In this document: positions 3,029-38,467 of the stretch, one piece after another | How positions within the stretch are numbered: the stretch's first letter is position 1 | Layout of the letters: each line of letters starts with the position of its first letter | From: Xanthocytophaga agilis | GTDB taxonomy: Bacteria; Bacteroidota; Bacteroidia; Cytophagales; 172606-1 | Length of the DNA: 64,000 bases | Direction of reading: 5' to 3' | Assembly: GCF_030068605.1 (NCBI RefSeq) | Contig: NZ_JASJOU010000019.1 | Coordinates: 1 to 64,000 of the forward strand | Position numbers and translations under genes: made by a program | Notes under the pieces: model-generated | Told to the model about the DNA's origin: nothing | Databases searched by the model: none | Seen by the model: only the letters and a program-made list of their open reading frames with translations

Positions 3029-4101
3029 TTTGGGTTTCACTCATCGTAAAAAAGTGCTTTTACTATTAACAACCATATAGGTAAAACTTTTTTACCCAGT
3101 GCTATGCTAACACATATACGTTCTACTGAAATGAGTATTTATATCATACTTCTGCTAGGTGCTTGGAAGTCTTACCAGGTATATTTCTATTTTGTGCCTG
3201 AAATGTCTAAAAACGGGCATGTTTTTTACCGCTATTATGCCAGACGTAAAGGTTTAGCATAGGAGTTATACAATGAAAATATTTGAAGCAAAAGTAATGA
3301 GGAGACCTTATTACTGGTCTACCTGCCGCCACAAATTTACTATCAGCAAGTTGCATTTGCAGAAACTGAAATATTATCCAACTCATCCTATTGATAGGTT
3401 TTCCCAAAGGCCACAAGCACAAATCCCTACTTTGATAAACTATCGTTTCATAGAAGATGAGTCTGGAATCTTTTCTAAACATGCCTGGCAGAAGAACAAT
3501 GCAGTCCCAATAGGAGAATCCCTGGCCCGTGAGATAGAAAAGCTGGCAAAAAGCCGTAGTGGTTTTGTCAGTACCTGCTCAGAAGAAAAGGTAAGTATCT
3601 TTTTTGCCTCTAAAACAGACTTATTTATAGTAACTGCCACTTTGCACATAAAAAAGTATTGGTTAAAAACGCCAGTCTAAAATGTAAGAGGAATAAGACT
3701 TTAGGCTCCGATACATTGTTATATACAGTCATCTCCACTGGCAGGATTCCTATAATATAAGCCGAAAGCTTTTTGCAGAAATAGTCTTCCTGTAGTCCGC
3801 ATCTCACATAGGTATTCCTACCTCTGGCAATAAACATGGCTGGATATTCATCCTTCCAGTTAGAGGATAAGTGATTGTGTAAACACCGAAAATGCATGGC
3901 GGAACAAGCTCGCTTCTGACTGAAATTGACATGCCATATCAGAAAGGTGCAGATGAGGGCTTTCAAAAAGTAACAACTTACAAATAAGGGTACACAAAAA
4001 ATTCTCTGGCGATAGGGATCTGTTTGGTTACAGAGAAAACACTCCATAAGTGATCATTGAAAAACTATTATCCATTTGTTTTATCTAAAATAACCTACTA
4101 T
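3029..4101. other. Long gap without a convincing gene
   Basis: Overlapping open frames occur on both strands (3273-3680 plus, 3625-4047 minus), but none has a recognisable domain, a signal peptide or Bacteroidota-like composition, and they overlap one another. I see no strong hairpin or tRNA. Together with the barrel relic just upstream, the stretch looks like decayed DNA. Confidence 0.4.
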
Positions 4102-4998
4102 ATGCAAGAAGTTCCTAAAGGAAAATTATTGATTATAGGAGGAGCCGAAGATATCGGAGATCCTCAAAAGTTGTCATGTGCTCAGGAAGAAAGTCGAAAC
4201 TTTCAAAGCTTTGAAGTATTACAAGAACTACTTCCTGATAATTCCAAAGCCGATTATCGGATCGAAGTAATTACCACAGCTTCGGAAGAGCCAAACGAAA
4301 TGGGCAAAAAGTACCAGAAGGCTTTTGAACGAGCCAACATTTCCAATGTAGGTATTATCCATATTAGCAACCGCGAGGAAGCCAATGCACCTGCTACAAT
4401 CAAACGTATCGAGAAGGCCAGTGCCGTGTTTTTCAGTGGTGGAGATCAGTTTCGTCTTTCTACTATACTGGGTTCCTCTCAACTAATGGAGGTTATCACC
4501 CGAAAGTATATCCGGGAACCTGGCTTTATTGTAGGAGGTACTAGTGCCGGAGCTATGGCGATCTCGTCAGTGATGATCTATGAAGGGGATAGCCACAAGG
4601 CACTACTGAAGGGAACTGTAAAGATTAGTTCTGGCCTTGGGTTGATAGATCATTGCATCATAGATACACATTTTATTAACCGTGGACGGTTTGGACGGCT
4701 GGCAGAATCCATTATCACGAACCCTGCCTGTATAGGGCTGGGCCTTGGTGAAGATACAGCATTGGTTATTTATGATGGCAATAAAGCCGAGTGTTGTGGT
4801 TCGGGAATGGTCGTAGTAATCGATAGCAAAGAACTGGGACATACCAACATTGCGTATGTAGAGAAAGGAACTCCTTTATCTGCTGAAAATCTGACGGTGC
4901 ATTTGTTGACGAAAGGAAACGGATTTTCGCTTAAAGAACGGAAATTTATTCCGGCAAAAAAGGATATGGAACTGGAGGAAAGCATCCGATCTCATTAG
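4102..4998 (+). CDS. cphB: Cyanophycinase-like serine peptidase (family S51)
   Basis: The product of about 298 residues starts KGKLLIIGGAEDIG, has the FSGGDQFRL segment and the nucleophile elbow GGTSAGAMA with the catalytic Ser, then an IDTHFINRGRFGRL segment. All are hallmarks of cyanophycinase, which cleaves beta-Asp-Arg dipeptides from the storage polymer cyanophycin. The length fits the family (about 270-300). I chose the ATG at 4102 because it begins just before the conserved first strand; a TTG at 4057 would add 15 unconserved residues. No signal peptide, so cytoplasmic. No cyanophycin synthetase or isoaspartyl dipeptidase lies in the window, so the substrate could be an imported polymer, a dipeptide or something else. 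The family is clear; the exact substrate is inferred. Confidence 0.88.
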   Translation: MQEVPKGKLLIIGGAEDIGDPQKLSCAQEESRNFQSFEVLQELLPDNSKADYRIEVITTASEEPNEMGKKYQKAFERANISNVGIIHISNREEANAPATIKRIEKASAVFFSGGDQFRLSTILGSSQLMEVITRKYIREPGFIVGGTSAGAMAISSVMIYEGDSHKALLKGTVKISSGLGLIDHCIIDTHFINRGRFGRLAESIITNPACIGLGLGEDTALVIYDGNKAECCGSGMVVVIDSKELGHTNIAYVEKGTPLSAENLTVHLLTKGNGFSLKERKFIPAKKDMELEESIRSH

Positions 4999-9662: not shown

Positions 9663-10031
9663 CTATTTCTTATAGAAATTCCAAATGATGACACTACTTA
9701 TAATGCCTCCTACATTTATAAGAATTATGATACTAAAATGAGGTTTTATAATGACCTGAGCAACAATTAGTGATATCCACAACTGCGAAATCACAAACCA
9801 TATAGCGCCTTTTGACGCATTACCACTACTATACTTTTTCAATATGGCGCCAATATATTTCCGGTCTGAAAGCCATTGGTAAAGTTTAGGCGATCCTTGG
9901 AGGAAACAATATCCTGCTAAAAGTATAAACGGAATTGCTGGTACGCCTGGTAATAAAACACCTATGTAAGCCAACACAAGGGAAACAATCCCCAAAAAAA
10001 GGAACAAGCATTTATACAAACGGCTATTCAT
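9663..10031 (-). CDS. DUF454 (YbaN-like) inner-membrane protein
   Basis: The 122-residue product has about three to four membrane segments. The conserved DUF454 signature is present: GVLLPGVPAIPFILLAGYCF then SPKLYQWL and a short 'KYIG' loop. The family is of unknown function and is often found near haem or metabolite genes. Its ATG overlaps the last 8 bases of the HMG-CoA reductase fusion gene, so it is the final member of the minus-strand operon at 9663-17572. That tight coupling suggests it works with the operon, perhaps as a membrane anchor or transporter accessory; this is inference. Confidence 0.85.
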   Translation of the reverse strand: MNSRLYKCLFLFLGIVSLVLAYIGVLLPGVPAIPFILLAGYCFLQGSPKLYQWLSDRKYIGAILKKYSSGNASKGAIWFVISQLWISLIVAQVIIKPHFSIIILINVGGIISSVIIWNFYKK

Positions 10032-12351
10032 ACCTCTTGTTAGCCTCTATCATTGCTTCTATATGCGAGAGCATGGCAAAGCAGTTATCCATTACCCTAT
10101 CAGGAAACTTAAGTTTCATTAAAATCTCAGACACCTTATAAAAAGACATTCGACATATCATAAACTCTTTCAGGCCATACACATATCCTTGCAGCCATTC
10201 GTTATCCTCAAGGTTCTTTCCCCAAATATCAGCATGTAAACCAAGATTTTCTTTCAGTACACTTATATCATTACGATCAACCAGGACAAAAGCCAGGAAC
10301 TCTACGATATCACGATGAGGTATGTTCTTTACTGCTAGTTCCCAATCATAAATACACACCTCTGCATTGCTCCGGATACCGACATTTCTAGGATTAAAAT
10401 CATTGTGGATCACACAAACAGGCCATGAATTTTCTATACTTTGTGTGATATCCTTCAAAAAACCAGGGAGTTTTTTAAACTGACCGCTACGTTCAGAAGA
10501 CGCTTCCTCTTTTAGAATGATAGCAATCAGTTTTTCATAAAGGGGGACCAATTGTGAAGGATCAAAGCGACGAATAAGATGATCAGGGACCTGATTTTCT
10601 CCAGAATAGTAATGTTGGTGTATCTTTGTAATAGCTTCAATTACCTTCTTCACATCTTCAAGTCTCCACATTTCTGGCTTGTTTTCGGTATTAAACAGGT
10701 GCATAGCATCAGACTGAAGGTATTCCATAGCCAACAGGTATATTTCACGCTGCACATTTTCTTTTTTTCCAAAATATTTTGGTGTTATGCAAAAGCCGCT
10801 GTTGTGCAGGTCCTCATAAATAAAAAGTTCTTTCAGATGGCAGTTATAATACTCGGTATGATTGCGGTAGGCATAGATAAGGTCAGATAGTGCCGGTTCT
10901 ATAGCAGCAGCCAAACTATGCAGCCCCTTTATTATATCCTGGTCGGATGCTTTTGATTTGATAAGCAGCGAAAGATTGTGCTGGGGGCCTGTAGCTGTAA
11001 AAGGGAAAAAGCCAATAAGCTTATTACTGGTCTTGCTGGTAAGGTTTGTAATGATGCCATTTTCCATTTCTTTCTCCACAAAAGAAACATTCAGACTAGC
11101 ATATTCTGCGTGCACACTGCCCATTATGCCCCTGACCAGGCTTTGATTAAGTTCGGTCCGGGTAAGCCAATTTACCGGTTTATTGCGTCCAAGTTTTTCG
11201 TGGGCTTTGGCAAATGCCCCACTTACAATGGCGGCGTAGGTAGAAATTTCGAGCGACAGAGCAAATGCGGCTATCAGTTGGGCAAAGCGTTGCAACTTGC
11301 CTTGTCCATAGCACTTCATTAATTCCAGCATTTCTTTTTGTTTGGGGACTGATGTGCCCCCTCCTACCGTACCTACAACCAGCGTAGGGAGCACAAGAGA
11401 TATATAGAGTCCGTCATCGGTTTTTTCCAGGTGCAGCATACCCACAGACGACTCATGAACACAGCCCAGGTCCTGCCCTGTAGCGGCAAATATGGCCGCT
11501 ATTGTGTTAGCCACATTGATATTGTAACTAAACATATTATCATTGTTTGCAAGTGCTACAGATGGTGTAAAACAGTTTACAATGTCCTGCGACGTAGTGC
11601 GCAGGACATTTTCTATAACGGCCTCTTTCAGGTAGCATTCTGCCATTACCCGCACACCCCGGCCATTTTCAACCGAATAGGATGAGACTTTTTTATCGGA
11701 CGAGCCATTGCCTTCAATAACATAGTTTTTAATGGCTATACCTGTTTCTGTGGTAAAATGGCTAACAATAAACAGCAATGCATGCCAGGTACAAGTGGTG
11801 GTCATGTTTTGGCCGGAAGCATCGCCAGTACGGTAAAAAAAACGGGCATGCACTACAGTATCAGCCAGTACAGGTTCTATAGATAAAAGCCGCGCATGGT
11901 TAGAATGCTTTTGGGCTTCTTTTTTAATGTATTCAAACTTATCCGGCAGCCAGTTGTAAAACGTTCCTGCATCGGCAGTACTATTAAAAATAAACATGGG
12001 GCAACGGCTCATTTTCTGGTGCACAAAGGTGGTAGCAATACCACCGCTCATGCTGGCTGCTTTTGCTCCCCGGTTCATACTTGCCACAAGGGCACCTTCT
12101 AAGGTTGCTGCCCCGGCATATACCCATTCTTTGCCGTCTTCTTCTATATGCAAAAGCGGCCCTACTAGCCCTATGGGTATTTCAACAGAGCCTATATAGG
12201 ATTCTATTTTATTCTGTATATCAGAATGCAATAGCCCAGAAGCTGCGATATGTGTTGTAGAATAACCCTGTTCATCCAAATAATCCTGACGCAGCTTGGT
12301 AGAGTAAGGCGTTACCAGGCCCCTGCCGGGAACTATGGGATAGTTTTCCAT
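10024..12351 (-). CDS. HMG-CoA reductase fused to an APH-like kinase
   Basis: A 775-residue two-domain protein. Residues about 1-420 are a class I-type HMG-CoA reductase making mevalonate with NADPH. All four catalytic residues are visible by comparison with the human enzyme: Glu85 in ATLEGALVAS, Lys220/221 in GSSDKKVSS, Asp294 in GQDLG, His384 in AKAHEKLGR. TGDASGQNM and GTVGGGTS are present too. Residues about 425-775 form an aminoglycoside-phosphotransferase-like kinase: an N-lobe with NLSLLIKSK, a hinge near REIYLLAMEYL, the Brenner motif VIHNDFNPRN (His649, Asp651, Asn656) and the metal-binding IYDWEL (Asp669). I know of no described enzyme with this fusion. The kinase might phosphorylate mevalonate or a mevalonate-derived product (inference). 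It follows the upstream kinase gene by 3 bases. Confidence 0.92.
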   Translation of the reverse strand: MENYPIVPGRGLVTPYSTKLRQDYLDEQGYSTTHIAASGLLHSDIQNKIESYIGSVEIPIGLVGPLLHIEEDGKEWVYAGAATLEGALVASMNRGAKAASMSGGIATTFVHQKMSRCPMFIFNSTADAGTFYNWLPDKFEYIKKEAQKHSNHARLLSIEPVLADTVVHARFFYRTGDASGQNMTTTCTWHALLFIVSHFTTETGIAIKNYVIEGNGSSDKKVSSYSVENGRGVRVMAECYLKEAVIENVLRTTSQDIVNCFTPSVALANNDNMFSYNINVANTIAAIFAATGQDLGCVHESSVGMLHLEKTDDGLYISLVLPTLVVGTVGGGTSVPKQKEMLELMKCYGQGKLQRFAQLIAAFALSLEISTYAAIVSGAFAKAHEKLGRNKPVNWLTRTELNQSLVRGIMGSVHAEYASLNVSFVEKEMENGIITNLTSKTSNKLIGFFPFTATGPQHNLSLLIKSKASDQDIIKGLHSLAAAIEPALSDLIYAYRNHTEYYNCHLKELFIYEDLHNSGFCITPKYFGKKENVQREIYLLAMEYLQSDAMHLFNTENKPEMWRLEDVKKVIEAITKIHQHYYSGENQVPDHLIRRFDPSQLVPLYEKLIAIILKEEASSERSGQFKKLPGFLKDITQSIENSWPVCVIHNDFNPRNVGIRSNAEVCIYDWELAVKNIPHRDIVEFLAFVLVDRNDISVLKENLGLHADIWGKNLEDNEWLQGYVYGLKEFMICRMSFYKVSEILMKLKFPDRVMDNCFAMLSHIEAMIEANKRYE

Positions 12352-12354
12352 AAC

Positions 12355-13152
12355 TTATTGGTTAAGTATTTCATTAACAAGCCTTCCATAAAATCGGTCA
12401 AGGCTTTCGAACTGTGAAGCATGAATGTATTCAACAACTGTTTTATGGCGTATGGCAACAGCGTCAAACAGACTATCGTAAATTTTATCAAACAGTGCCA
12501 GAATCTGAAGCTGTTCATGGGGTTCAGACACTTTTCTTGAGGCAATACGGTTTAAAAGTACACCAGGTTCAGCCTTTAAAAAGTAAATCTCATCAGGCAA
12601 ACTGGTTTTAAATAATGCTCTGAGTTTCTCATCTGGCACAGTAGCATCTTTAAAACAATCATGTATAAAAGTAAATAGTGTACCTGCAGGGTCAGCAAGC
12701 CCTTTTACAGGAAGTAACGACAGTATAAAGCCCAATAGCTGACCATAGGCCTCATTGTAATAATCCAGACGTTCCCTTTTCAGACTACCCGGACTTATAC
12801 GACCTGTATAAAATCTTGCATAAACAAGCGGGTCTACTAAAGGATGTCGCTCACATACCAGCACACGAGTAAGAGGGGTTACCATTTCATCTGCCAGCTT
12901 TTGGTAAAGCATCATGGCACCAAAGAGTGACAGGGCTTTCAGGTCGCTCCGGTTGTTCTTATCAGCATCTGCACCCATCTCATTTAAGAGTTTTGTGTGC
13001 TTTTTAAGTGCTGAGTCCTCTGGTAATACATCTTCGTCTATATGCGGCAGGGTCAACAACGTTACATGCTCAAGCTTTTGTGATTTTAATTTTGAGAATA
13101 TCACGCTTTTGCCGCTTCCGTCTAAACCTGTTATAAGTATGGTTTTTATCAT
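12355..13152 (-). CDS. Thymidylate-kinase-like P-loop protein
   Basis: The 265-residue product begins with a Walker A loop, ITGLDGSGKS (Lys15), followed by a long insertion and LVCERHPLVDP, the position of the thymidylate-kinase 'DRY/DR' substrate motif. A lid-like segment RIASRKVSEPHEQLQ near residue 205 carries basic residues. Length and sequence differ from true Tmk (about 205-215 residues), so it is probably a kinase for another nucleotide or small phosphate. The start overlaps the stop of the preceding gene by 4 bases (ATGA), so the pair is translationally coupled. Its paralogue is the next gene upstream (13149-13751). The substrate is unknown. Confidence 0.8.
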   Translation of the reverse strand: MIKTILITGLDGSGKSVIFSKLKSQKLEHVTLLTLPHIDEDVLPEDSALKKHTKLLNEMGADADKNNRSDLKALSLFGAMMLYQKLADEMVTPLTRVLVCERHPLVDPLVYARFYTGRISPGSLKRERLDYYNEAYGQLLGFILSLLPVKGLADPAGTLFTFIHDCFKDATVPDEKLRALFKTSLPDEIYFLKAEPGVLLNRIASRKVSEPHEQLQILALFDKIYDSLFDAVAIRHKTVVEYIHASQFESLDRFYGRLVNEILNQ

Positions 13153-13751
13153 TCGGAGATATATTTAACAGCTAGCGCACACAGCTCCTCCGGTAGGAAT
13201 GACGAATCAAGTATACACCAGTCTGATTTAGTATACGTTTCGAACTCAGCAATCAATCGGGTTTGAAACCCGATAAAATTTTCAGGGGTTGCGTCACGGC
13301 AGCCACACTCATATCGGGAGAATCGTTTTTTACGCACAGCGCTCAGTTCAGGCCTGTATGAAAGTAAAATGGTCTTATCGGGCACCGGCATGCGCGAAGC
13401 AAGGTACTGCACTAGTTCCCTGTCTGCACCCATTACTGTTTCGGAAGCAAAATATTTATAATAGTAAGCGTTTATAATGATTATCCTGGTGTCGGACTGC
13501 AACGCCTTATCTATTGCAGCCTGCATGGCATGCGCTAAAAACAACAGCCGTGCATTGGTGTCAAGCAGGCATAAATAGTCATCTACTGCCTTTTTACCGC
13601 TGAAGATCTGTCCGGCGGAGTTTTCCAGCATATCCCAAATGCTTACCTCCCAGGCATATGACCATTCTTTTTTAAGGCCGTTTATGAGTGTGGATTTCCC
13701 AGAGCCGTCGGCACCTGTTATGCAGATAAGGGTTCTTTTTTTATTGTACAT
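13149..13751 (-). CDS. Second thymidylate-kinase-like P-loop protein
   Basis: The 200-residue product has a Walker A loop ICITGADGSGKST (Lys19) and a Walker-B-like strand IIIINAYYYKYF. A basic segment VRKKRFSRYECGCRD around residues 145-160 may be the lid. It resembles its neighbour at 12355-13152 only in the P-loop region, so the two may phosphorylate different compounds or form a heterodimer. It overlaps the upstream nucleotidyltransferase gene by 11 bases. True thymidylate kinase is not excluded, but the missing DR(Y/F) motif and the operon context argue against it. Confidence 0.75.
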   Translation of the reverse strand: MYNKKRTLICITGADGSGKSTLINGLKKEWSYAWEVSIWDMLENSAGQIFSGKKAVDDYLCLLDTNARLLFLAHAMQAAIDKALQSDTRIIIINAYYYKYFASETVMGADRELVQYLASRMPVPDKTILLSYRPELSAVRKKRFSRYECGCRDATPENFIGFQTRLIAEFETYTKSDWCILDSSFLPEELCALAVKYISE

Positions 13752-15114
13752 TGCTTACAACTTTCTTTATTTCGGCGGGGTCAATGTTCTTTTTACGCAG
13801 GTAATCAAAGTATGAATCCTTAGCCAAGACATAGTTTACAGGAGACAGCATTACGTCAAAAAACAGCTTTACAAACAACAGACTGGTAACTTTCCACCCT
13901 ACCTCTTCTGCAATTATGGCAAAGGAAAACCATGGCCCCTGTATCCTGCCTTTAATTTTGTTAGCAATAGTAGGGCTGTGAAACTTGTCTATAAACTTGA
14001 GACTGTGCCCGATGTCGGGAAAATACAACATCCTGAGTATTTTGCCATACAATGGCAGACGATGATGGAACTTAGGGAAAAGATTTATATAAATAACATT
14101 CTTTTCAATATCCTGAAAATAATCATTGTAGGAATTATGAATGTCTCCTGTTTCGGCAAACATCTCTTTTCTTTTCTTTAGCCTGGTGCTTATGAACGAA
14201 GAATCCTTTACTGGCATCCTTTCCAGCCAGGCCTTTGGTATGGTGTTGGTACACAAATTGCACATTTCGAGTGTAAAGCGAGCTTTTTCTGTCGCACCTG
14301 TTTTCTCTATCAAATCAAACAAGGCTTGTGTGTCAGCCACATTCCATGATGTGGCAGCAAGAAGGTTGTATACATCCATGCAATCACGTATACCGCATTT
14401 ATATATTCCCATGTGCAGTATAAGGTGTAGCAGGTTATAAGCTGGCGATAGCTGCTTGCATAGTACAGTCTCAAAAGAAAAAGGCAATGCCGTGTCCCAC
14501 GCATCCTGCATGTTTATAGTAAAGCTTGTTGTAGGTGATTTTAAACCCCATTGTGTGCCAATGATGCATGTAAAATCAGGACTGATAAACGGTATTGCGG
14601 TGTGACTGAATTTTGTTTCCTTTTCTTTTTCACCACTCCAGCCAAACCCCAATGGAATGAACCCAAGATCCAGGTAAATCTTATGTACCTTAGACCAGTC
14701 TTCTCTTTTTATAAGGATATCAAAATCATTCATTTTTTTGTATCCTGTATTACCATAAATGGTATTGGCAAATAAATTACCCTTCAGGATAATAAAATCG
14801 ATACCGTTATCATTAAATGCTTTAAGGAATTGCAGTGCCTTAGCATTCCGTTTTTCATTCTCCAACTTAACCTTCTGATATACTGCCTCAAATTTGCCTT
14901 GCACATCTTCAGTAAATAATGTAGAAAGACTATATTTTTTAAGCTGAATATTCATCCACGGAGCCATCTTCCATTTAAGGCAATACTCAAAAAAAACATC
15001 CTGCTGTCTGGCGTCACCACACAAACAGGTTAATTGTTCCCTACAGAAATCAAGCTCAGCAGGCTTTATATCTACCTGGCTTACTAATGCTATAATTTTA
15101 AATGTACTATTCAT
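13741..15114 (-). CDS. Nucleotidyltransferase-fold protein (NTP_transf_5, PF14907-like)
   Basis: The product of about 457 residues carries the family signature IDFIILKGNLFANTIYG followed by KKMNDFDILI, with the DxD-type acidic pair of the nucleotidyltransferase fold. A helical C-terminal half follows, with HLILHMG. Members of this poorly understood group occur next to kinases in capsule and natural-product gene clusters. I chose the ATG at 15114, which overlaps the end of the dikinase gene by 8 bases (ATGAATAG); an upstream start at 15150 would add 12 residues inside that gene. The transferred nucleotide and acceptor are unknown. Confidence 0.78.
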   Translation of the reverse strand: MNSTFKIIALVSQVDIKPAELDFCREQLTCLCGDARQQDVFFEYCLKWKMAPWMNIQLKKYSLSTLFTEDVQGKFEAVYQKVKLENEKRNAKALQFLKAFNDNGIDFIILKGNLFANTIYGNTGYKKMNDFDILIKREDWSKVHKIYLDLGFIPLGFGWSGEKEKETKFSHTAIPFISPDFTCIIGTQWGLKSPTTSFTINMQDAWDTALPFSFETVLCKQLSPAYNLLHLILHMGIYKCGIRDCMDVYNLLAATSWNVADTQALFDLIEKTGATEKARFTLEMCNLCTNTIPKAWLERMPVKDSSFISTRLKKRKEMFAETGDIHNSYNDYFQDIEKNVIYINLFPKFHHRLPLYGKILRMLYFPDIGHSLKFIDKFHSPTIANKIKGRIQGPWFSFAIIAEEVGWKVTSLLFVKLFFDVMLSPVNYVLAKDSYFDYLRKKNIDPAEIKKVVSNVQ

Positions 15115-17572
15115 GAGTAATAACTTTTTCAATAGAACCTGTGGCCCCATTTATTTTAATTTTTTCTCCGTGAATAATGGCTGTCGTTGCTTTTTTAACG
15201 CCCACGATAAGCGGTATTCCCATTTCCCTACACAAAATAGCCGTATGAGAAAGCAAACTGCCCCGTTCGGCAACAAGACCGCGGGCCCTGGCAAATACAC
15301 CTATCCAGCCGGGCTCAAAAAAAGGTGCTACGAGTATTTTATCATTTACATCAAGGTCCTGAATATTCTGCACAGTTACCTGAACGGCCTCCCCTATAAC
15401 AATCCCACTACTACATCCTGTACCTGATAGCTCGCCTTTTGGTAATGATTCTCGTTTTTCTATTGGATACAGAACACCTTCTATTTCATGGTAACGCACA
15501 TAGCGATATTCATTCTGATAAAGCTCGTATTCCTCTTTCCGCTTACTGATAGTTTCTTTATAGCTTGTAATACCGGGATCTGTTAGTTCTTCAAAAGTGA
15601 GATAAAGCGAATCACCTGCCGAATGTATAAGCCCCTGATTGAGTAAGCACTTATCCATTTTCCTGAAAATCTGCCTTGCCATAGCAAATGACTTTGTTCG
15701 TATAAATCGGAAGTTTTCGCGGTCGCGCACCCGATTTATAGTAAACTTCAACCCCCAACTTAACAGCAAGTGCTTTAAAGGGTTATACCTGTATTGTTCT
15801 TTTAGAACCTTTTTATAATCAAACGGCTCTTTCTGCTCCCTTTTATGATAGGGAAGAGACAGATTTGCTTTTAGCAAGGCAATAAATTTTGATGGGCCTT
15901 CACGATAATTTACAGTTTCCATCTTCATTTCACCTTCATCACAACGTTCTCCATATTTTTTAAGGTAATTGGTAATCAACGCATACGATTCCGAATGGTG
16001 TACCTCTATGGCCTGCAAGGCCTTGGAACTATCTTCTTCGAGTAGTATCTTTTTCACCATTTCGTTATGGTGCAGCCTGTAAATAAGGTCTTGTAATGCC
16101 TTTACAATGTCAACCGATACCACATCGCCAATGCCTGCAATAGTATCATTAAGAAAGTTAGGGAACGTATCATTTAGGCGTGAACGTGACAATACTTTTT
16201 TAAACCCGTTATAGGATAGCATGGCAAAAAAGCCGTTTATCATAGGCGGATACCAGTAACGACCCAGGTTATACTCCATTTCTTTGTAAATAGCAATAAG
16301 CCCCTGATGGGTTTCGGCATCGAGGTTTCTTTCTTCAAACTGCCGACGTGTGGCCTCATATTGGGCCAGGTACTTCGCTTTATACTTGCCGAAGAATAAA
16401 ATACTCTTTAGTAAATTTAAAAATAAGCGAGCATATACGATTGGTGAAGCCTTGGTAATAGGCTTACTAAATTTAGCCGGGTCAGCACCCAACATTTTTG
16501 TTATCATCTGGCTTGTATTACTGCCAAATGGCAACTGGTACAAAAGCTGCTGCCAAGCTGTAATATTATAATACATCCCCCCTTTTATACTGCCCACCAT
16601 GCTATTAAATAAGCTTTTATTGCGCTCTATAAACACATTGCCAGACCCTAAAAACCTGCACATTTGCTTATAAGCCATACTGTATGAATGCAGCATGTAA
16701 GAACTTGTAAGTGGCAATGTTATACCTGGATAGTTTATGGACAGGTTCGAATTATCCCAAACAGTATAAGCACCTTTGGGCACTAATGACGTTATAGGGC
16801 GTACCTGCAACCAGTATATCCGACCATTATATAGGGTAAACTCTGTATCTACCGGAAAGCCTTTTAATTCTTCAAGTTTTTTTAGCTGTTGCCCAATTTC
16901 TTGCAGGTAGGGTGTTATACCCAAAAAAAGGGCATCGCCGGTAAGGGTTATGGGCTTATAACCACCATTAAAGACTTCCCCTTTATATGTTTCTTCTTTC
17001 GAAATTGCTTTTGGTCCAGTAGAAGACAATGTTATTTCCATGCCGTTTTCTTCACCCGAAACCAGTTTAAACCCCAAACCAGGTAGTATGTTTATCAAAG
17101 GGTGATCACCATCATGATCAAGCGGGTCAGTAGAAAAACCTACTCCTGAAATTTCTCCCTGAACCATCTTTTGCAATACAACATGAAAGCTAAAGCCATC
17201 ACCCATATGATAGCCGGAAGTATTCACCTGTTTAAAACCTTCAATTACGTTTACCAAAGCAGCAGGCAGGCTTTTAGTGCTACAATTAAGCACAGTGGTA
17301 AATATACCTGCATAAGATTGGTGAGTTCCATCTTCTACTCCGGCACTGGATCGCAGCGCCCAAAGCGAGTTTTCATCGGGGTTGGTATTTTTTTTCCATG
17401 CCTCAAAAAAGGATTCTGCTGACAAACTACCTGCAAGGATATTCCGCACTGTATCATCAGGTATGATATAATACTGGGGAACAGTAAATCTGTTCCTTAG
17501 CAAGAAAGTAAGTCCGTCTGCCTTTCCTCCAAAAAACCGGTCTGGAATATTTTTGTATGAATAATAGTTCAT
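15107..17572 (-). CDS. PEP-synthase/rifampin-phosphotransferase-like dikinase
   Basis: The 821-residue product has an N-terminal ATP-grasp domain of the PPDK_N type (about 1-265): GGKADGLTFL, SLWALRSSAGVEDG, VVLQKMVQGEISGVGFSTDP and the closing LQVRPIT. A large helical middle region (about 280-700) follows. The C-terminal swivelling phosphohistidine domain (about 725-815) contains ERGSLLSHTAILCREMGIP, whose His is the phosphoryl carrier. The PEP/pyruvate-binding barrel of true PEP synthase is absent. This is the layout of rifampin phosphotransferase, which splits ATP and passes the beta-phosphate to a small molecule. It is the first gene of the six-gene operon, so it is likely to act on the same compound as the later kinases (inference). 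No clear promoter box was found upstream. Confidence 0.88.
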   Translation of the reverse strand: MNYYSYKNIPDRFFGGKADGLTFLLRNRFTVPQYYIIPDDTVRNILAGSLSAESFFEAWKKNTNPDENSLWALRSSAGVEDGTHQSYAGIFTTVLNCSTKSLPAALVNVIEGFKQVNTSGYHMGDGFSFHVVLQKMVQGEISGVGFSTDPLDHDGDHPLINILPGLGFKLVSGEENGMEITLSSTGPKAISKEETYKGEVFNGGYKPITLTGDALFLGITPYLQEIGQQLKKLEELKGFPVDTEFTLYNGRIYWLQVRPITSLVPKGAYTVWDNSNLSINYPGITLPLTSSYMLHSYSMAYKQMCRFLGSGNVFIERNKSLFNSMVGSIKGGMYYNITAWQQLLYQLPFGSNTSQMITKMLGADPAKFSKPITKASPIVYARLFLNLLKSILFFGKYKAKYLAQYEATRRQFEERNLDAETHQGLIAIYKEMEYNLGRYWYPPMINGFFAMLSYNGFKKVLSRSRLNDTFPNFLNDTIAGIGDVVSVDIVKALQDLIYRLHHNEMVKKILLEEDSSKALQAIEVHHSESYALITNYLKKYGERCDEGEMKMETVNYREGPSKFIALLKANLSLPYHKREQKEPFDYKKVLKEQYRYNPLKHLLLSWGLKFTINRVRDRENFRFIRTKSFAMARQIFRKMDKCLLNQGLIHSAGDSLYLTFEELTDPGITSYKETISKRKEEYELYQNEYRYVRYHEIEGVLYPIEKRESLPKGELSGTGCSSGIVIGEAVQVTVQNIQDLDVNDKILVAPFFEPGWIGVFARARGLVAERGSLLSHTAILCREMGIPLIVGVKKATTAIIHGEKIKINGATGSIEKVITHE

Positions 17573-19102: not shown

Positions 19103-19897
19103 ATGGACTTACAACTGACAAACAAAACCGCATTTATCAGTGGTTCAACCGCAGGCATCGGCTATGCGATTGCAAAAAGACTGGCAACCGAAGGGGCAAC
19201 AGTACTTATTAACGGTAGAACCCAGATTGCCATCGACAAAGCAGTAAACGAACTAAAAACAACAACTGGAAACCCGAATATATCTGGCATCATGGCAGAT
19301 TTCCTGGATGTTGATCAAATAAATCAACTACTCAATCAGCTACCTCCTATCGATATTCTGATCAATAATGCAGGAATATTTGAACCTAAATCGTTTGTCG
19401 ATATCACTGATCAGGAATGGTTACGTTTTTTTGACATGAATGTAATGAGTGGCATCCGGTTATCACGGCATTTATTCCCCAAGATGTTAGAAAAAAACTG
19501 GGGACGAATTATTTTTATTTCAAGCGAAACGGCTGTGTCCACAGCAAGTGAAATGGTACATTACAGCATGACCAAAACAGCTCAGATCGCTATCGGTCGG
19601 GGGATGGCCGAACTTACAAAAGGAACCGGTGTCACAGTTAACTCCATCCTGCCAGGCCCAACCAAATCCAGGGGGATCTCTGGGTTTATTTCCGATATGG
19701 CAGCGGTAAATACGATTACTGTACAGGAGGCTGAACAAAATTTCTTTAAAGATATTCGTCCTACTTCTTTACTCCAACGTTTCGCGTCTGTAGAGGAAAT
19801 AGCAGATACTGTAGCCTATTATGCGAGTCCGTTAGCGTCTGCCACCAATGGCGCTGCTATTCGTGTGGAAGGTGGAACAATAAACACCATTATCTGA
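19103..19897 (+). CDS. Short-chain dehydrogenase/reductase, copy 1
   Basis: The 264-residue product is a classical SDR. The nucleotide loop SGSTAGIGYAIAKRL (TGxxxGIG type) is near residue 14, ILINNAGIF gives the NNAG motif, and the catalytic pair is in YSMTK, with Ser in FISSET upstream. NGR after the second strand suggests NADP(H). It reduces or oxidises a hydroxyl/keto group of an unknown small molecule. It is 255/264 identical, by my count, to the protein at 37673-38467. It precedes an NmrA-type reductase and an AraC regulator on the same strand, the gap being 278 bp. Confidence 0.9.
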   Translation: MDLQLTNKTAFISGSTAGIGYAIAKRLATEGATVLINGRTQIAIDKAVNELKTTTGNPNISGIMADFLDVDQINQLLNQLPPIDILINNAGIFEPKSFVDITDQEWLRFFDMNVMSGIRLSRHLFPKMLEKNWGRIIFISSETAVSTASEMVHYSMTKTAQIAIGRGMAELTKGTGVTVNSILPGPTKSRGISGFISDMAAVNTITVQEAEQNFFKDIRPTSLLQRFASVEEIADTVAYYASPLASATNGAAIRVEGGTINTII

Positions 19898-37672: not shown

Positions 37673-38467
37673 ATGGACTTACAACTGACAAACAAAACTG
37701 CATTTATCAGCGGCTCAACCGCAGGTATCGGCTATGCGATTGCAAAAAGACTGGCAACTGAAGGGGCAACAGTACTTATTAACGGTAGAACCCAGATTGC
37801 CATCGACAAAGCAGTAAACGAACTAAAAACAACAACTGGAAACCCGAATATATCTGGCATCATGGCAGATTTCCTGGATGTTGACCAAATAAATCAACTA
37901 TTCAATCAGCTACCTCCTATCGATATTCTGATCAATAATGCAGGAATATTTGAACCCAAATCGTTTGTCGATATCACTGATCAGGAATGGTTACGTTTTT
38001 TTGACATGAATGTACTGAGTGGCATCCGGTTATCACGTCATTTATTTCCCAGCATGTTAGAGAAAAACTGGGGACGAATTATTTTTATTTCAAGCGAAAA
38101 CGCTGTGTCCACAGCAAGCGAAATGGTACATTACAGTATGACCAAAACAGCTCAGATCGCTATTAGTCGGGGTATGGCCGAACTTACAAAAGGAACCGGT
38201 GTTACAGTTAACTCCATTCTGCCAGGTCCAACCAAATCAAGAGGAATGGCTGGGTTTATTTCCGATATGGCAGCAGTAAATACGATTACTGTACAGGAGG
38301 CGGAACAAAATTTCTTTAAAGATATCCGCCCTACTTCTTTGATACAACGTTTCGCTTCTGTAGAAGAAATAGCAGATACGGTAGCCTATTATGTAAGTCC
38401 GTTAGCATCTGCCACCAATGGAGCTGCTATTCGTGTGGAAGGAGGAACCATCAACACCATTATCTGA
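37673..38467 (+). CDS. Short-chain dehydrogenase/reductase, copy 2
   Basis: The 264-residue product differs from the one at 19103-19897 at nine positions by my count (for example F for L in INQLFNQL, L for M in MNVLSG, S for K in FPSMLEKN, M-A for I-S in RGMAGF). The catalytic SYK set and the cofactor loop are identical in both. The leader of about 40-70 bp before the ATG is also shared, so the duplication unit includes the control region. It closes the hydrolase cluster, 147 bp after the cupin gene, and has its own promoter-like leader. The substrate is unknown. Confidence 0.9.
   Translation: MDLQLTNKTAFISGSTAGIGYAIAKRLATEGATVLINGRTQIAIDKAVNELKTTTGNPNISGIMADFLDVDQINQLFNQLPPIDILINNAGIFEPKSFVDITDQEWLRFFDMNVLSGIRLSRHLFPSMLEKNWGRIIFISSENAVSTASEMVHYSMTKTAQIAISRGMAELTKGTGVTVNSILPGPTKSRGMAGFISDMAAVNTITVQEAEQNFFKDIRPTSLIQRFASVEEIADTVAYYVSPLASATNGAAIRVEGGTINTII

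Follow-up and report, generated by a model that had tools for sequence, protein, structure and literature searches.

Mevalonate is, to our knowledge, known almost only as a precursor of isoprenoids. A minus-strand operon of Xanthocytophaga agilis raises the question of what else it might be made for. The operon lies in a stretch of 64,000 nucleotides (assembly GCF_030068605.1, contig NZ_JASJOU010000019.1, positions 1 to 64,000; hereafter the window) and contains a gene that joins a 3-hydroxy-3-methylglutaryl-CoA (HMG-CoA) reductase to a kinase. Our tentative answer, held with somewhat less than even confidence, is that the fusion enzyme supplies phosphomevalonate, outside isoprenoid synthesis, for incorporation into an unusual phospholipid or lipid conjugate. 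For the fusion family, use in lipids has the best support of the readings considered; for the window it is plausible. If it is true, mevalonate has a biosynthetic role unrelated to isoprenoids.

The fusion gene (10024..12351, minus strand) encodes a protein of 775 amino acids. Residues 1 to about 395 form the reductase (Pfam HMG-CoA_red, 6e-96; 322 bits against a cut-off of 27), and residues from about 410 to 775 form a kinase of the APH fold (Pfam APH, 9e-8). The catalytic residues E85, K220, D294 and H384 of the reductase are present in the window and invariant in the 10 aligned fusions, as are the kinase motifs H649-N650-D651, R655-N656 and D669. The kinase half has the HxD...N and following Asp motifs of the APH family, a Pfam APH score above the cut-off and a kinase fold: modeled alone, it gave a structure with a pLDDT of 90, for which Foldseek returned APH-fold kinases at TM-scores of about 0.5 (YtaA, homoserine kinase, N-acetylhexosamine kinase, spectinomycin kinase, LicA and human choline kinase). 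The nearest solved structure of the reductase is 6hr7; the NCBIfam model TIGR00533 (NADPH HMG-CoA reductase equivalog domain) was not reached (262 bits against a cut-off of 442). The residues of the substrate pocket give a mixed picture: in human numbering, the equivalents of Arg590, Asp690, Lys691, Lys692 and Asn755 are retained in the fusions, and those of Ser684, Lys735 and His752 mostly differ, as detailed below. HMG-CoA is the likely substrate. As in the classical mevalonate pathway, the reductase domain has its four catalytic residues complete, but the kinase has the APH and not the GHMP fold.

The six genes of the operon overlap or nearly touch, and the families named for them in the preliminary description were recovered as Pfam domains; the operon is confirmed. 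The first gene (15107..17572) encodes an Rph-like dikinase with an ATP-grasp domain, a central domain and a C-terminal phosphohistidine domain (PPDK_N and PEP-utilizers in Pfam). It is followed by an NTP_transf_5 nucleotidyltransferase (NTP5, 13741..15114; PF14907, 9e-28), the thymidylate-kinase-like P-loop kinase 1 (13149..13751; PF02223 above the cut-off), the divergent thymidylate-kinase-like P-loop kinase 2 (12355..13152; PF02223 at 23.7 bits, under the 27-bit cut-off), the fusion and, as last gene, a small DUF454 membrane protein (9663..10031; PF04304, 1.4e-22), all on the minus strand. Although the open reading frame (ORF) of NTP5 opens at 15150, a start at 15114 is preferred because the starts of four homologues agree with it. 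All junctions are overlaps of 4-11 nt or a gap of 3 nt: the dikinase stop and the likely NTP5 start have the 8 nt ATGAATAG in common, the same 8 nt are common to the fusion and the DUF454 gene, NTP5 and kinase 1 overlap by 11 nt, the two kinases overlap by 4 nt, and the 3 nt gap separates kinase 2 from the fusion. Scans of the operon for promoters and terminators gave no signal above shuffled sequence, and its base composition is ordinary for the window. Neither the cupin gene downstream nor the CheB-like gene about 620 nt upstream shows any sign of belonging to the operon. The preliminary description had let its case depend on the neighbours being conserved together. This conservation was found: the order dikinase-NTP5-kinase1-kinase2-fusion is repeated, with identities of 48-68%, in members of two further genera, a Dokdonia metagenome-assembled genome (MAG) and an Aquimarina genome, and because it recurs there the arrangement is more than chance.

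In the dikinase, H776, R618 and E619 are invariant in 11 of 11 related dikinases and align with the catalytic His, Arg and Glu of rifampin phosphotransferase (RPH), as these are given in the accessible text of PMC4844700. The domain order is also that of RPH; unlike RPH, however, the dikinase stays far below the corresponding NCBIfam cut-off (NF041857, 159.6 of 999 bits) and is not an RPH by that model. The NTP5 homologues in four other loci (L026, L033, L027 and L056) retain the motif NDFDIL. The structure model of NTP5 was poor (pLDDT 63.5) and gave no structural match at E 0.001 or better, and a search of NTP5 against plasmids gave no match. The P-loop of kinase 1 is conserved in five proteins, and the P-loop and the motif CERHPL of kinase 2 in seven; no solved relative of kinase 2 was found at E 0.01. 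A first scan of genome contigs with a single protein had found no relative.

Is the operon simply the isoprenoid route of its host? The preliminary description had proposed, as one possibility, that it replaces mevalonate kinase and phosphomevalonate kinase, and a kinase fused to the reductase with further kinases adjoining would suit such a role, as would the fact that an animal phosphomevalonate kinase is a P-loop enzyme. The fusion reductase is the sole PF00368 match in the host. DXR, an enzyme of the methylerythritol phosphate (MEP) pathway, is present, which counts against the replacement, and the best match to the mevalonate-diphosphate decarboxylase model in the host reached 20.4 bits against a cut-off of 171, so that no route from mevalonate to isopentenyl diphosphate is detectable there. 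Ten fusion genomes were tested: eight have DXR, and seven combine DXR with no convincing decarboxylase. A substantial decarboxylase match was obtained in the other three (G391, G394 and G396), each time under the curated cut-off. Single absences are weak since several of the tested genomes are drafts from metagenomes. With DXR present and a convincing decarboxylase missing in the host, the operon is unlikely to be its isoprenoid route, and the replacement of the two kinases, rejected on the DXR and decarboxylase tests, appears highly improbable to us.

We found the fusion at 22 distinct loci in Bacteroidota (numbered with an L below), of which L030 and L032 are nearly identical. The gene is patchily distributed: it occurs in 2 of 390 sampled genomes of the order and 10 of 395 of the class, in 3 of 299 from the family of the Aquimarina genome and in 3 of 294 from the family of the Niastella genome, and 10 fusion loci were found in a named genome collection scanned with two short patterns. 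These counts overlap (L027 and L034 are class hits as well, and L028 is G055); beyond the class, coverage consisted of the two-pattern scan, and the spread may be wider. Four further matches in the class (1e-101 to 1e-103) span the reductase part only and are not counted as fusions. Within the window's genus, the gene is missing from two further genomes, one of them 72% complete.

The neighbours of the fusion fall largely into two types, which never occur together in the 22 loci. In 12 of them, the gene directly after the fusion encodes a CarS-like protein, that is, a CTP transferase resembling CDP-archaeol synthase. The 11 of these 12 proteins that were scanned all match PF01864 at E 0.01 or better (best 5.5e-10), and a profile of the CarS-like proteins matches the CDP-archaeol synthase 5guf at E 0.002. 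Half of the CarS loci (6 of 12, and 6 of 22 overall) also contain a CDP-alcohol phosphatidyltransferase; seven such proteins were found, all with a complete DxxDGxxAR...GxxxDxxxD motif, and of four scanned none reaches an NCBIfam cut-off. The order is fusion-CarS-phosphatidyltransferase-GtrA in L065 and L066, and in L061 the phosphatidyltransferase lies about 0.7 kb past CarS with one ORF between. In seven of the 12 loci a dikinase gene is accompanied by one for UbiA or a UbiA-like protein, the pair in L058 standing about 1-5 kb off on the opposite strand. By Pfam, UbiA is above the cut-off in L061 and slightly under it in L058; in the remaining five the assignment comes solely from a profile comparison around the aspartate motif (E 1e-4), and Pfam and NCBIfam made no UbiA call for the type-B membrane protein. 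Genes for a methyltransferase, PlsC and FA_desaturase follow in L031, with similar genes in L054 and L057. FA_desaturase is present in 8 of the 22 loci, identified by Pfam in L027, L031, L032, L034 and L071 and by similarity in L054, L057 and L060. The preliminary description had not noticed that relatives of the fusion adjoin CarS-like, UbiA-like, CDP-alcohol phosphatidyltransferase, acyltransferase and desaturase genes. In L060 (6226-9154), the stretch immediately before the fusion has a radical SAM gene and a gene for a 571-aa protein without Pfam match between a desaturase and a CDP-alcohol phosphatidyltransferase.

The second type, with kinase 2, comprises 7 of the 22 loci: the window, L026, L033, L056, L027, L025/L072 and L070. 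The full order of five genes is found in the window, L026 (Dokdonia MAG), where the contig stops within the fusion, and L033 (Aquimarina), which is without DUF454 after the fusion. In L056 the dikinase, NTP5 and both kinases converge on the fusion. The fusion of L027 is surrounded by genes for NTP5 and the two kinases, for DUF454 and, by Pfam, for a desaturase, an epimerase-family short-chain dehydrogenase/reductase (SDR) and an acyl carrier protein, with no dikinase in view. The L033 operon is headed by an alpha-oxoamine-synthase-family gene (3537-4775; its best NCBIfam model is bioF, at 273 of 426 bits, under every cut-off), and a similar Aminotran_1_2 gene (1595-2803) stands at the front of the L026 operon. 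NTP5 of the window type was found in none of the 12 CarS-type genomes; Dokdonia has one weak second match of 34 bits. In L070, an R2K-clade ATP-grasp protein (10718-11431) is encoded directly upstream of kinase 2. Three loci remain: L030 has neither CarS nor kinase 2, L032 ends with its contig, and L059 is masked; a 1523-aa ORF in L059 was discarded as an artefact of masked bases.

Substrates, order of steps and product we infer as follows. The reductase half of the fusion would convert HMG-CoA, or a closely related glutaryl-CoA, into mevalonate, which the kinase half would phosphorylate. Phosphomevalonate may then become the polar component of a phospholipid or lipid conjugate. In many relatives, the CarS-like membrane CTP transferase, in half of the cases together with the CDP-alcohol phosphatidyltransferase, would form the phosphodiester. 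In the window type, nucleotide activation would more likely fall to NTP_transf_5, the P-loop kinases may add or supply phosphate, and the Rph-like dikinase may phosphorylate (or ligate) a hydrophobic partner. Two orders are conceivable: phosphomevalonate could be the head group, or it could be a backbone that is lipidated first and then activated. The compact operon of fusion, CarS and phosphatidyltransferase has the logic of phospholipid synthesis, in which a phosphorylated alcohol is activated with CTP and transferred to or from a lipid. Going further, one could propose a class of Bacteroidota lipids in which phosphomevalonate replaces the usual head group or the glycerol-phosphate backbone, made by the fusion and then either by CarS and CDP-alcohol phosphatidyltransferase or by the variant with NTP_transf_5, P-loop kinases and Rph-like dikinase; in this full form the proposal is doubtful. 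Were mevalonate the head group, the lipid would be expected 130.06 Da above phosphatidic acid.

Several observations weigh against a phosphomevalonate lipid. CarS and CDP-alcohol phosphatidyltransferase are absent among the six genes of the window operon, and the mutual exclusion of the CarS and kinase-2 types counts only once because it is essentially one split on the tree. The bit scores seen for three CarS-like proteins are all under the 22-bit Pfam cut-off, and the related dikinases form three families that are only about 23% alike. The two loci of the Niastella family (L025/L072 and L070) have kinase 2 and the fusion only, with no window-type NTP5 elsewhere in their genomes. HMG-CoA synthase was matched in one of 11 genomes and not in the host, in a test that is insensitive and that we do not trust because G396, which has a decarboxylase match and no DXR, should need the synthase and yet gave no match. 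In the reductase pocket, the equivalent of Lys735, which in the human enzyme forms a salt bridge to the HMG carboxylate of a statin (roles of pocket residues as given in the available parts of PMC9500038 and PMC3875450), is Lys in one of 11 fusions, with uncertain register, and in none of 10 standalone Bacteroidota reductases, and at the position of His752 all 11 fusions have Asn, where 10 of 10 standalone reductases have His. The standalone set is what was left for this comparison and for the tree after 7 of 17 loci were dropped as mistranslated.

Because the Lys735 and His752 equivalents are changed, the thioester substrate of the fusion may differ. The reductase half could use another, perhaps lipid-like acyl thioester and the kinase half phosphorylate the resulting alcohol, so that the fusion itself would make a lipid phosphate for activation by CarS or NTP5. 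CarS enzymes act on lipid phosphates, which would suit this proposal, as would the missing HMG-CoA synthase match in the host; the four catalytic residues and the equivalents of Arg590, Lys692 and Asn755 are all kept, however, and the 10 readable standalone reductases likewise have no Lys735 equivalent and carry an acidic residue or Ala at the Ser684 position (acidic in 8 of 10, and in 11 of 11 fusions). We regard another thioester as unlikely. It is also unlikely, to a slightly lesser degree, that mevalonate is turned by the fusion and its neighbours into a soluble natural product or signalling compound other than a lipid, with CarS, UbiA and phosphatidyltransferase confined to other branches that use the same first product differently. 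Such a product would fit an operon of soluble enzymes and one small membrane protein, the rarity of the fusion in the order, the loci reduced to two genes and the dikinase, which matches the models of PigC- and RPH-like dikinases that serve natural products. Against it, dikinase, desaturase or acyl-carrier genes tie the window type to the lipid-like types, and the family of the gene leading the Dokdonia and Aquimarina operons includes serine palmitoyltransferases. Lipids are favoured over a soluble polyol because of the lipid-type genes that adjoin the relatives of the fusion. The preliminary description is thus partly supported: of its route phosphorylating a mevalonate-derived or polyol-type molecule, the specialised route stands, probably with a mevalonate-derived compound, and the polyol is less favoured.

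Known systems resemble the phosphomevalonate lipid scheme in parts. As far as described in the available portion of PMC9246714, the inositol-lipid clusters of Bacteroides (BT_1522-1526 and an alternative in B. vulgatus) likewise combine a CDP-alcohol phosphatidyltransferase with an enzyme that makes the phosphorylated head group, and one version, like L065 and L066, has a GtrA-like gene; its deletion in Bacteroides left the inositol lipids unchanged. The characterised version has a CDP-lipid acceptor step, while the proposed alternative is of the Kennedy type with an NTP transferase (PMC9246714). In contrast to our loci, those clusters use inositol phosphate, made by MIPS, as head group, for which a fused reductase-kinase would stand here; the CarS-like gene is found in the relatives of the fusion, and a phosphatidyltransferase is missing from the window type. 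In bacteria of the Fibrobacteres-Chlorobi-Bacteroidetes (FCB) group, ether-lipid genes of archaeal type also pair a UbiA-superfamily synthase with the MEP pathway, but those genomes are without CarS according to the accessible text (PMC7852524), unlike the relatives of the fusion. The neighbourhoods of the fusion showed no gene for geranylgeranylglyceryl phosphate (GGGP) synthase; PcrB matches are either at a distance from the fusion or on a different contig and occur in 13 of 18 genomes tested, one of them without the fusion, which rules out a partnership of GGGP synthase specific to the fusion. A further parallel is a lipocone protein, from a lipid-related superfamily of membrane proteins, that has an HMG-CoA reductase and a GHMP kinase in its vicinity; these are, however, separate genes, and the kinase family is a different one, in the part of the source available (PMC12419801). 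In the literature searched, outside which most subscription papers fall, phosphatidylmevalonate, CDP-mevalonate and similar terms are not used, and no title or abstract describes the fusion or a reductase with these neighbours. The conserved gene set around the predicted bifunctional enzyme is thus described nowhere in that literature. This predicted mevalonate-making and -phosphorylating family, found mostly in MEP-pathway genomes with enzymes of phospholipid type as neighbours, would establish a new class of lipid or conjugate and a new reductase-kinase. It also provides a context for three kinds of protein whose role is unknown, NTP_transf_5, DUF454 and the Rph-like dikinases.

In a tree of the reductase domain, a branch with 100/100 support sets 21 of 21 fusions apart from the 10 standalone reductases, and the window groups with the two Niastella-family genomes, then with Dokdonia and Aquimarina; its bootstrap had not yet converged, and some of its branches were flagged as long. 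The tree includes L059 and L032, which is truncated by the end of its contig, but not the broken fusion of L061. The scattered distribution and the placement in the tree suggest that the fusion spread by horizontal transfer, of which base composition gives no sign. In L061 (7063-9835), the fusion gene is in three reading-frame pieces and the CarS-like ORF is short, through decay or assembly errors. Elsewhere in the window, two near-identical genes for 264-aa SDR proteins (19103-19897 and 37673-38467) lie on one strand about 18 kb apart and are probably a recent duplication.

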